Source of the DNA: an uncultured Prevotellaceae bacterium
GTDB lineage: Bacteria > Bacteroidota > Bacteroidia > Bacteroidales > Muribaculaceae
Assembly: GCA_945921235.1 (NCBI GenBank)
Contig: CAMEKH010000006.1
Span: 1 to 35,805, forward strand
Direction of reading: 5' to 3'
Length of the DNA: 35,805 nt
The notes below the pieces were generated by a model, which was not told the DNA's origin, did not search any database, and was given only the letters and a program-made list of their open reading frames with translations. A program made the translations under genes and the position numbers. This document shows, piece after piece, positions 7,824-34,994 of this stretch (within the stretch, counting starts at the first letter, position 1; each line of letters begins with the position of its first letter).

Positions 7824-7896
7824 GGTGATTTAGTGTAGTGGCCTAGCACGCCACCCTCTCACGGTGGAGACCCGGGTTCGATTCCCGGATTCACTA
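7824..7896 (+). tRNA. tRNA-Glu (anticodon CTC)
   Basis: A complete cloverleaf can be drawn. Acceptor strands are 7824-7830 (GGTGATT) and 7889-7895 (ATTCACT), D stem GTGT/GCAC at 7833-7836 and 7846-7849, anticodon stem CCACC/GGTGG at 7851-7855 and 7863-7867 with anticodon CTC at 7858-7860, T stem CCGGG/CCCGG around the loop TTCGATT (7877-7883), discriminator A at 7896. CTC reads GAG, hence Glu. CCA is not encoded. The acceptor stem has a G-T wobble at pair 1-72 and a T-T mismatch at pair 6-67. Terminator and promoter flank it closely, so it is a monocistronic tRNA. Confidence 0.93.
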
Positions 7897-7902
7897 CACA
7901 CT

Positions 7903-31192: not shown

Positions 31193-31239
31193 CATTAATA
31201 AAAAATGAAGTGCGATTGAATTTTTTAGTTGAAAAAAGT

Positions 31240-31599
31240 ATGAGAACAAATAGACATATAATTATTTGGCTTGCATTTTTAGCGGTTGTGCTGATTGCAT
31301 GCAATAAGGCGTTTTCAGTGAAATCGATAATTCTGCATCCTGCCTCTGTGGAAACAATAGTGGACGATACTATTCAATTATCGTTTGCAATGGATTATAT
31401 CGGTGGCGATTTTAAAGATGAAAATCTCATACAACCTGTTTGGGAAACGTCGGATAAAGCTATTGTAGATGTTGACCCACGTGGCAGAATATTTACAAAG
31501 GCTGTAGGTAATGCCGTAGTGACGATGTCGTGCGGTGGAGCTGTGGGAGAATGCCGAGTTAAAGTGAGAGAATCTGATTCACAGTCCGAGCCGCGTTGA
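31240..31599 (+). CDS. Small Ig-like (BIG2-type) lipoprotein
   Basis: 119 aa from the ATG. The lipoprotein signal ends V-L-I-A-C, Cys21. The remainder is one bacterial Ig-like domain of BIG2 pattern: V-K-S-I-I-L-H-P-A-S-V-E-T-I-V-D-D-T-I-Q-L, then V-W-E-T-S-D-K-A-I-V-D-V-D, then G-R-I-F-T-K-A-V-G-N-A-V-V-T. Surface or periplasmic; function unknown. It stands alone between the pyr genes and the aromatic operon. Confidence 0.75.
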   Translation: MRTNRHIIIWLAFLAVVLIACNKAFSVKSIILHPASVETIVDDTIQLSFAMDYIGGDFKDENLIQPVWETSDKAIVDVDPRGRIFTKAVGNAVVTMSCGGAVGECRVKVRESDSQSEPR

Positions 31600-31666
31600 A
31601 TTGTCGCATTTTTGTGATATTTGCTTACAATTTTCCTTATATGGTGCAAAAATTATTGATTTTAGT

Positions 31667-31696
31667 TTGGAATTTGAATGAAATAATATATCTTTG
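31667..31696 (+). promoter_or_regulatory. Promoter for the Phe/Tyr biosynthesis operon
   Basis: TTG at 31667-31669, 19-bp spacer, TATCTTTG at 31689-31696. Start near 31700, about 17 nt before the leader-peptide ATG. Confidence 0.7.
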
Positions 31697-31716
31697 CGAC
31701 ATAAAACGGATTTCAA

Positions 31717-31770
31717 ATGAAAAATTTTTATGCATATTATTTTTGCTTTTACTTTTATTTTAAGGAATAA
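31717..31770 (+). CDS. Phe/Tyr-rich leader peptide of the pheA operon
   Basis: A 17-codon ORF, MKNFYAYYFCFYFYFKE, ending in TAA at 31768-31770. Five residues are Phe and five are Tyr. It lies between the operon promoter and a terminator placed just before pheA, in a cluster that makes exactly these two amino acids. The composition and position are those of attenuator leader peptides such as pheL. Ribosomes would stall on it when charged tRNA-Phe or tRNA-Tyr is scarce. Confidence 0.88.
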   Translation: MKNFYAYYFCFYFYFKE

Positions 31771-31772
31771 GA

Positions 31773-31832
31773 GGCGAGATTTTATGCTATAGTTGATTTT
31801 GGAATGAATGATTAACAATATAAAATCCCGTC
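31773..31832 (+). promoter_or_regulatory. Antiterminator of the pheA attenuator
   Basis: GGCGAGATTTTAT (31773-31785), beginning 3 nt after the leader stop codon, pairs with ATAAAATCCCGTC (31820-31832): 13 positions with one A-C mismatch and one G-T pair. The right-hand strand is the left arm of the terminator, so the two structures exclude each other. A ribosome that reaches the leader stop codon would cover the left strand; one stalled at Phe/Tyr codons would leave it free. Confidence 0.75.
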
Positions 31833-31855
31833 AAATGAAAATGACGGGATTTTTT
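31822..31855 (+). terminator. Attenuator terminator before pheA
   Basis: AAAATCCCGTCA (31822-31833), 8-nt loop, TGACGGGATTTT (31842-31853), perfect 12-bp stem with the T run reaching 31855. It ends 14 nt before the pheA ATG, so it must be read through for the operon to be expressed. Confidence 0.9.
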
Positions 31856-31869
31856 AATATAGATAATTA

Positions 31870-32724
31870 ATGGCAAACAAAAGAATTGCAATACAAGGCG
31901 AACCCGGTTGCTTCCACGATGCTGCTGCGAGAAGTTTCTTCACTGACGATGAAGTTGAAACAATTCCGTGCGACACGTTTATAAGTATGTTTGACCTTCT
32001 GAAAACTGATGCATCAATGCTTGGAATTGTCGCTATTGAAAATACTATAGCAGGTAGCCTTCTCCAGAATCATGAATTATTGCGGCAGAGTAATCATATT
32101 ATTGTAGGTGAATATAAAATGCACATATCGCATGTGCTTGCGGCTTTGCCCGGACAGACAATAGAGGAACTTACCGAAGTTAATTCTCACCCTATGGCTT
32201 TGATGCAGTGTGAGCAATATCTGCTCAGGCACAGCAATCTGAAAATGGTTGAAAAGAATGATACGGCAGGAAGTGCAAAAGAAATTTCGGAGAAACATCT
32301 TATGGGGCATGCTGCAGTGTGTGGAAAATATGCCGCCGAATTATACGGATTGAATATACTTGAAGAGGGAATTCAGACTAATAAACGTAATTTTACACGT
32401 TTCCTTGTTATTGCCGACCCTGTGGAGGCACCGGCTATTCTTGGCAACAAAGTAAAGAACAAGGCTTCGCTCGTATTTACGTTGCCTCACACTCATGGCA
32501 GTTTGTCGAAGATTCTCACGATTTTTTCTTTCTATGACATAAACTTATCTAAAATACAGTCACTCCCAATTATAGGACGTGAATGGGAATATAGATTCTA
32601 TATAAATCTTACTTTCGATGATTACACTCGATACCGGCAGTCAATTGATGCTGTGCGTCCTTTAATCAACGATTTCAAAATCTTAGGTGAATATGCAGAA
32701 TTCAAAAATGAAACAGGAGCTTAA
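31870..32724 (+). CDS. pheA: Prephenate dehydratase
   Basis: 284-aa monofunctional enzyme turning prephenate into phenylpyruvate. Catalytic domain begins R-I-A-I-Q-G-E-P-G-C-F-H-D-A-A-A; the catalytic T-R-F is at 176-178. Other markers are A-I-E-N-T-I-A-G-S and N-D-T-A-G-S-A-K. The C-terminal ACT domain (about 200-275) has the L-P-H-T-H-G-S-L-S-K-I-L start, but where classical enzymes have E-S-R-P for Phe binding it has Q-S-L-P (230-233). Chorismate mutase is not fused here; it sits on the DAHP synthase. First structural gene after the attenuator; the next gene starts inside its end. Confidence 0.94.
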   Translation: MANKRIAIQGEPGCFHDAAARSFFTDDEVETIPCDTFISMFDLLKTDASMLGIVAIENTIAGSLLQNHELLRQSNHIIVGEYKMHISHVLAALPGQTIEELTEVNSHPMALMQCEQYLLRHSNLKMVEKNDTAGSAKEISEKHLMGHAAVCGKYAAELYGLNILEEGIQTNKRNFTRFLVIADPVEAPAILGNKVKNKASLVFTLPHTHGSLSKILTIFSFYDINLSKIQSLPIIGREWEYRFYINLTFDDYTRYRQSIDAVRPLINDFKILGEYAEFKNETGA

Positions 32725-33886: not shown

Positions 33887-33920
33887 ATTAATTTTGATAA
33901 AACATAGTAATATTATAGAT

Positions 33921-34994
33921 ATGGAAAATTTAGAGTCAATTATTTTGCCCGGTTTAAGTGATAAGAAACCATTGATAATAGCCGGTCCATGTAGTGCCGA
34001 AACGGAAGAACAGGTGCTGACTACTGCTAAAGAGTTGGCGGCAAATGGCGTGAAAATATTCAGAGCCGGAATTTGGAAACCTCGTACTAAGCCCGGTGGC
34101 TTTGAGGGCGTGGGAATTGAAGGACTGGATTGGCTGAAAAAAGTAAAAGCTGAAACGGGAATGTATGTGGCTACAGAAGTTGCCAATAAAGCTCATGTAG
34201 AAGCCGCTTTGGCCGCAGGTGTAGACATTTTGTGGATTGGAGCGCGCACATCGGCAAACCCGTTTGCAATGCAGGAAATAGCAGATGCTCTCGTTGGAGC
34301 CGATACGGTGGTGCTCGTTAAGAATCCGGTAAATCCCGACCTTGAATTGTGGATTGGAGCAATGCAGCGAATATACAATGCCGGAATAAGGAAACTTGGA
34401 GCTATTCATCGCGGTTTTAGCTCTTATGGGAAGCATTTGTATCGCAATATGCCACAATGGCACATTCCAATTGAACTTAGCAGGCGTATGCCTAATTTGC
34501 CTATTTTGTGCGACCCTTCGCATATAGGAGGGAAACGAGAACTTGTTGCTCCTATTGCGCAGCAAGCAATGGATATGGGATTTGATGGCTTGATTATTGA
34601 GTCGCATTGCGACCCTGATTGCGCATGGAGCGATAAGAGTCAGCAAGTTACGCCCGATGTCCTTAATTATATATTAAATATGCTTGTTATTCGCGACACC
34701 AAACAGACTACGGAGAATCTCACACTTTTGCGCCAACAGATTGACCAAATTGACAATGAATTGCTTGAAATACTCAATAAGCGTATGCGTGTGTCGAGGG
34801 AAATAGGTCAATATAAGAAAGAACACAGCATGCAGATTGTGCAAACCGACCGATATGGTGATATATTGAAGTCGCGAATAAAACTTGCCGAAGAGATGGG
34901 AATGAGTGGCGATTTCATGAAAGATGTGCTTGTGTCGATTCATGAAGAATCAGTGCGTCAGCAAATAGAGGTCTTTAATAATAGGATAAAGTAA
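33921..34994 (+). CDS. Bifunctional DAHP synthase / chorismate mutase
   Basis: 357 aa. The first ~255 residues are a type I-beta 3-deoxy-7-phosphoheptulonate synthase: P-L-I-I-A-G-P-C-S-A-E, F-R-A-G-I-W-K-P-R-T-K-P-G-G-F-E-G, W-I-G-A-R-T-S, H-R-G-F-S, C-D-P-S-H-I-G-G-K. The last ~85 are an AroQ chorismate mutase: L-R-Q-Q-I-D-Q-I-D-N-E-L-L-E-I-L-N-K-R-M, then K-K-E-H. It thus joins the first step of the shikimate route with the branch step to prephenate, the substrate of both pheA and tyrA in this operon. The mutase is C-terminal, as in other Bacteroidetes. Start ATG 33921 is used since relatives begin here. Confidence 0.94.
   Translation: MENLESIILPGLSDKKPLIIAGPCSAETEEQVLTTAKELAANGVKIFRAGIWKPRTKPGGFEGVGIEGLDWLKKVKAETGMYVATEVANKAHVEAALAAGVDILWIGARTSANPFAMQEIADALVGADTVVLVKNPVNPDLELWIGAMQRIYNAGIRKLGAIHRGFSSYGKHLYRNMPQWHIPIELSRRMPNLPILCDPSHIGGKRELVAPIAQQAMDMGFDGLIIESHCDPDCAWSDKSQQVTPDVLNYILNMLVIRDTKQTTENLTLLRQQIDQIDNELLEILNKRMRVSREIGQYKKEHSMQIVQTDRYGDILKSRIKLAEEMGMSGDFMKDVLVSIHEESVRQQIEVFNNRIK

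Follow-up and report, generated by a model that had tools for sequence, protein, structure and literature searches.

A single stretch of about 200 nt lies directly in front of four genes of aromatic amino acid biosynthesis in the DNA considered here (35,805 nucleotides from an uncultured Prevotellaceae bacterium, hereafter the window), and it raises the question of how one regulatory region could follow the supply of two end products. The genes, all on the plus strand, are pheA, encoding prephenate dehydratase (PF00800; 31870-32724), a class I/II aminotransferase gene, probably for Phe/Tyr aminotransferase (PF00155; 32687-33886, or from 32717), a gene for DAHP synthase fused to chorismate mutase (DAHPS-CM, PF00793 and PF01817; 33846-34994, or from 33918) and tyrA, encoding prephenate dehydrogenase (PF02153; 35001-35774). 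With these four gene products the operon serves the synthesis of Phe as well as of Tyr. On the same strand, just 5' of the region, lies a small lipoprotein-like ORF of 129 aa without a Pfam match (31210-31599), and the sole tRNA of the window is a tRNA-Glu with a CTC anticodon (7824-7897).

The leader region and its predicted mode of action

Upstream of pheA a Bacteroidetes-type promoter is found on the plus strand at 31666-31696, with TTTG at 31666-31669 and, after 19 nt, TATCTTTG at 31689-31696 (TAtcTTTG). It precedes a leader ORF of 17 codons, MKNFYAYYFCFYFYFKE (31717-31770, with ATG at 31717 and the TAA stop codon at 31768-31770), which is short, translatable and rich in codons for the end products, as in attenuators. 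Its control codons (31726-31761) read F Y A Y Y F C F Y F Y F, with five Phe and five Tyr, and none of 200 dinucleotide shuffles of this upstream region gave a run that matched it (p = 0.005, the lowest value attainable). Between the leader ORF and the first gene an intrinsic terminator (3:4, 31822-31855, plus strand) consists of a perfect 12 bp stem (31822-31833 with 31842-31853; −16.2 kcal/mol on folding) and a T run (31850-31855) that ends 14 nt 5' of the pheA ATG. Exclusive with it is an antiterminator (2:3, 31773-31832), in which 31773-31785 face 31820-31832 with 12 of 13 positions paired, one of them as G.U, and a mismatch of A at 31777 with C at 31828; the fold extends this duplex by the pair 31786/31819 and adds an inner helix of 31792-31798 with 31810-31816. 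By computation the 5' strand of the antiterminator would be freed by a stalled ribosome and covered by one that has reached the stop codon, 2 nt upstream. The antiterminator is weaker in isolation than the terminator (−13.2 against −16.2 kcal/mol) and can therefore prevail only because it folds earlier, as known attenuators do.

A third, protector structure (1:2, 31732-31787) pairs the control-codon region with the antiterminator strand, by way of 31732-31736/31783-31787, 31741-31746/31774-31779 and 31752-31760/31765-31773, and is predicted to bring transcription to an end if no ribosome is on the leader. The same kind of pairing was obtained on folding for most relatives: its signal is moderate in the window alone (z −1.6), and over 123 loci the mean z is −1.85, with at least 6 antiterminator nucleotides paired into the leader in 89%. 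Since the protector hairpin is conserved too, all the elements of a trp-type attenuator are present. The initial annotation of this DNA had lacked the protector pairing, which is an addition to it. For the rest, direct reading of the sequence agrees with its promoter and its leader of 17 codons with five Phe and five Tyr, coordinates included; the perfect 12 bp terminator with T run overlapping the antiterminator stands, and the domain assignments establish the order pheA-aminotransferase-aroF/CM-tyrA that it had proposed. The 13-position antiterminator was correctly placed, but it contains 12 pairs and one A-C mismatch.

Taken together, these sequence features most probably make up a ribosome-mediated transcription attenuator of the classical kind, in which the leader peptide mixes Phe and Tyr, a reading to which we assign a probability of roughly 0.93. 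We infer its regulatory behaviour as follows. Transcription from the promoter at 31666-31696 would yield a short leader mRNA. With charged tRNA-Phe and tRNA-Tyr both plentiful, the ribosome would pass the control codons, reach the stop codon and cover 31773-31785, so that the terminator at 31822-31853 would stop transcription 5' of pheA. If either tRNA were short, the ribosome would stall at any of the ten Phe/Tyr codons, and its leading edge would leave the antiterminator strand free to pair with 31820-31832, blocking the terminator and allowing transcription of the four genes. If the leader remained untranslated, the protector would sequester the antiterminator strand and transcription would end, as in trp.

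The protector would make read-through depend on any translation of the leader, a property shared with a different scheme, namely that the leader senses amino acids only in part and that the main signal is leader translation as such (the rate of ribosome arrival or general translation stress) or reinitiation at pheA; in Bacteroidetes a gene may be translated more strongly, through reinitiation, when a short ORF lies in front of it (PMC4833913). However, the leader stop codon of the window is about 100 nt from the start of pheA, with the terminator in between, as compared with 11-14 bp in the effect described in PMC4833913, and the identity of the codons is itself under selection, as detailed below, so that such a scheme is very improbable as the main account.

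Conservation and the register between codons and antiterminator

The comparison that supports the mixed Phe/Tyr attenuator included the pheA loci of 80 relatives taken from a public collection of genomes and mostly labelled Muribaculaceae, Bacteroidales (the near-relative set), and further pheA loci from order-wide (family-diverse) and phylum-wide genome draws, the identity of the pheA proteins going down to about 35-40%. Leaders were called by a scan for small ORFs in which the Phe/Tyr runs of every upstream region were compared with those of its own 200 dinucleotide shuffles (p ≤ 0.03). By this measure 139 of 175 scorable loci, drawn from across the phylum, have a leader with a Phe/Tyr run in front of pheA; these are 55/78 of the near-relative set (window included), 53/59 of the family-diverse order sample, 27/30 loci from other orders of the class and 4/8 from other classes, where it should be considered that loci of one clade are not independent. 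A permissive scan found the terminator in 135 of the 139 leader loci. The promoter motif TAnnTTTG just 5' of the leader ATG (within 90 nt) is present in 108 of 137 loci with about 9 expected, namely in 52/54 Muribaculaceae-like loci (expected 3.9) and 56/83 others (expected 5.1).

Some Muribaculaceae-like loci keep the operon and have no leader (e.g. L051, L060, L063, L071 and L079), and in these, as in L073, which lacks the leader too, a ychF-like sequence lies directly 5' of pheA. A second Muribaculaceae-like group without leader (L047, L049, L057, L059, L066, L074, L078) mostly lacks tyrA in the operon as well. The absence of the leader from tyrA-less operons was rejected as strong evidence, because L047, L049, L057, L066, L074 and L078 have similar upstream sequence and probably belong mostly to one clade.

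The strands of the two hairpins are coupled. Over 79 diverse loci the mean energy of the antiterminator duplex was −13.2 kcal/mol with the locus's own terminator 5' arm and −8.3 kcal/mol with swapped arms, and none of 10,000 permutations gave swaps as good as the own pairing. The arms are wholly changed between loci (for example L185, L186, L199 and L203), and pairing is kept despite strong sequence change, as in the three strands of L185 (AGGGATCTTTATGTG / AACATAAAGGTCCCA / TGGGGCCTTT) and those of L199 (AGGGGGACGCTG / GAGCGGTCCCCCA / GGGTACCGCTT).

The position of the antiterminator keeps register with the codons. Its start lies a median of 11-12 nt after the last Phe/Tyr codon (sd 3.4), just past the footprint of a ribosome stalled on that codon, and between about −35 and +7 nt relative to the leader stop codon (sd 12.1). 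When the search was left open from the leader ATG, 92% of the starts fell 5-16 nt past the last Phe/Tyr codon, against 14% for uniform placement. Because of the tight register at the last Phe/Tyr codon and the wide spread at the stop codon, the former distance is to be regarded as the conserved design parameter. In a model that puts the leading edge of the ribosome 13 nt from the first A-site base, the antiterminator stays whole (mean −12.1 or better) as long as the A-site holds a Phe/Tyr codon, the last one included, and its mean energy falls to −8.8, −5.1 and −3.0 at one, two and three codons past the last; with the ribosome at the stop codon more than half of the antiterminator energy is lost in 120 of 121 loci. 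The ORF of many relatives continues through the antiterminator strand (e.g. ...FYFAKNKNGILCA), so that completed translation covers the strand directly, and the layout of the window, with the stop codon just 5' of the strand, is a shorter version of it.

In light of these data, the 2 nt between stop codon and antiterminator that the initial annotation had pointed out are correct for the window, but the distance that is conserved is that from the last Phe/Tyr codon. It had also named loss of the leader ORF or of the antiterminator in relatives as evidence that would speak against it; both are kept phylum-wide, with strongly changed sequence.

A terminator with an antiterminator would by itself suit any attenuator, including a tRNA- or ligand-binding RNA (a T-box or a Phe/Tyr riboswitch) that controls the terminator while the ORF is incidental, the more so as Tyr operons elsewhere use T-boxes (PMC1262725). 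The T-box covariance model stayed without a match, both over the window at its gathering score and over 31600-31900 at E ≤ 10, and no riboswitch family matched at threshold in the window or at E ≤ 10 near the leader. Against such an RNA also stands the fixed distance from the last Phe/Tyr codon to the antiterminator, which would be needless for a ligand switch; control by an RNA of this kind is very improbable.

Leader codons follow the content of the operon

The mixed Phe/Tyr attenuator further predicts that the codons of the leader should match the genes it controls, and genomes in which the operon is divided bear out the proposal, already made in the initial annotation, that mixed codons reflect a joint Phe and Tyr operon. 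Where the operon contains the aminotransferase, DAHPS-CM or tyrA, Tyr is present in the leader run in 136/136 cases, with at least two Tyr in 135 of these and a mean Tyr share of 0.47. In front of pheA alone, L135, L149 and L164 have no Tyr in the run; the leader is Phe-only in three lineages, namely in G018 (MTRFFTHFFFFFTQQ), in G028/G462 (...FRFFFFFAFFF...) and in the family of G038 (...NNSFFFFFF...), and the Phe-rich runs of a fourth family (that of G099) contain one Tyr at most. In the same genomes, detached tyrA/DAHPS-CM operons have a Phe plus Tyr attenuator or leader of their own, as in G018 (MNNTFGYYAFYYYFFYNN), G028 (MIKNISVFAYFYYYFYFSKK) and G479 (MASLHTYYAWSFFFFYF...), and so do split operons of aminotransferase, DAHPS-CM and tyrA, the tyrA of which was recognized with an HMM built in this analysis. 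Where one family has both arrangements, its leaders diverge to match (G018 against the other members of its family; L270/L271 against L272/L274 in the G099 family). This codon-operon match is the strongest argument that the Tyr codons, as judged from the compared sequences, are regulatory and not a U-rich by-product.

It also bears on a last alternative, by which the hairpin would simply terminate the upstream gene (31210-31599) or an antisense transcript, while U-rich sequence would have produced the Phe/Tyr ORF by chance: the region is A/T-rich, TTT and TAT codons come easily in U-rich DNA and the hairpin has a terminator score on the minus strand as well, but, because the ORF exceeds all dinucleotide shuffles and is conserved phylum-wide, the terminator and antiterminator strands change together as the arm-swap permutations demonstrate, and the Tyr content of the leader shifts with operon content, it is refuted as the main account and retains a negligible probability.

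As to the third aromatic amino acid, outside the near relatives 25 Trp codons were counted in or beside the Phe/Tyr runs, against 9.4 expected from the local TGG frequency (non-Muribaculaceae loci with Trp are, for example, L157, L169, L174, L184, L194 and L221), an excess which suggests that some lineages may sense all three. The leader of the window has no Trp codon. In the host assembly PF00793 has two matches, the DAHPS-CM of the operon (33918-34991) and a KdsA-sized protein (G000 contig C53:7111-7866), and no class II DAHP synthase was found; with one DAHP synthase besides the KdsA-sized match, the sole DAHP synthase therefore seems to be under Phe/Tyr control by a leader without Trp. A dependence of the Trp codons on DAHP synthase copy number was considered and set aside, no clear relation being seen by eye, as they occur both with two PF00793 matches and with three. 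Tandem leaders are found 5' of an aminotransferase-tyrA-DAHPS/CM operon in L314, L322, L324 and L326 (G099, G486, G490 and G491, respectively), about 130 nt apart (e.g. MLTNYTYSYFFYWFYRL then MITSSFYYFWNYYYLFY); all are rich in Tyr/Phe, most include Trp, and behind each leader comes a separate terminator-like hairpin with a T run, as in a tandem attenuator.

With distinctly less assurance than for the locus itself, we are inclined to see here a single attenuator design across Bacteroidota that senses aromatic amino acids in combination, the sensed set being rewritten by codon substitution as operons split or fuse: Phe only for lone pheA, Phe and Tyr for joint or tyrA operons, Trp in addition in some lineages, with one genus placing two attenuators in a row. 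The leader would then act as an OR gate whose inputs can be read from its codons.

Relation to known attenuators and significance

In enterobacteria the pheA leader has Phe control codons and is not known to have Tyr ones, and tyrA is under TyrR. The attenuators of pheA and pheST in Gammaproteobacteria (Rfam Phe_leader, RF01859) resemble the one described here in having a leader rich in the end product, a protector, an antiterminator and a terminator, and in their position 5' of pheA; however, the Rfam model reached only 15.0 bits in the window (E 5.9; cut-off 55), and here one leader carries both Phe and Tyr codons for a joint operon. No Rfam family covers the leader of the window; ncr1175, ncr1575, rseX and other Rfam hits around the region, obtained at a low threshold, were rejected as apparent chance resemblances to the terminator hairpin. 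The Phe/Tyr T-boxes of Firmicutes likewise sense tRNA charging and control a terminator, whereas here, without a T-box match, sensing would be by the ribosome.

A 2005 paper counts phenylalanine among the cases of attenuation and tyrosine among those of T-boxes (PMC1262725), and, apart from the hisS system that it had itself found, a survey of 2010 was aware of no leader-peptide system beyond Proteobacteria and Actinobacteria (PMC2965389). The 2020 map of B. thetaiotaomicron contains small ORFs reminiscent of attenuation leaders and does not name a Phe/Tyr leader (PMC7366714). The closest element is a structured, unexplained one 5' of pheA in Flavobacterium psychrophilum, conserved in Flavobacteriaceae, in a paper whose main text reports strong clues for leader-peptide attenuation 5' of amino-acid biosynthesis operons (PMC9723704); it has in common with the present one the gene, the phylum and the lack of an Rfam match, but that main text names pheA only as an entry in a list and gives for it neither the sequence of a leader peptide nor Phe/Tyr codons nor a mechanism. 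Beyond it, no description of a Phe/Tyr leader in Bacteroidota, of its register or of the operon match was found in the literature searched, and some of these leaders may have been predicted in silico before (e.g. Lopatovskaya 2010, cited in PMC4833913). Ribosome-mediated attenuation is known; its mixed Phe/Tyr version across the phylum, absent from Rfam, was found undescribed.

Bacteroidota are dominant gut bacteria in which control of amino-acid synthesis is little studied, so that a phylum-wide attenuator on the shared Phe/Tyr pathway, not in Rfam, offers a directly testable regulator and an annotation marker for a small ORF that otherwise goes unannotated. It also provides a natural series of genomes in which one regulatory design is kept and the sensed amino acids vary with the controlled genes. 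Although it differs from trpL and its relatives in Proteobacteria and Actinobacteria in amino acids, phylum and operon, and its sequence is unrelated to theirs, it shares with them the four-segment 1:2, 2:3, 3:4 design and the predicted stalling on control codons.
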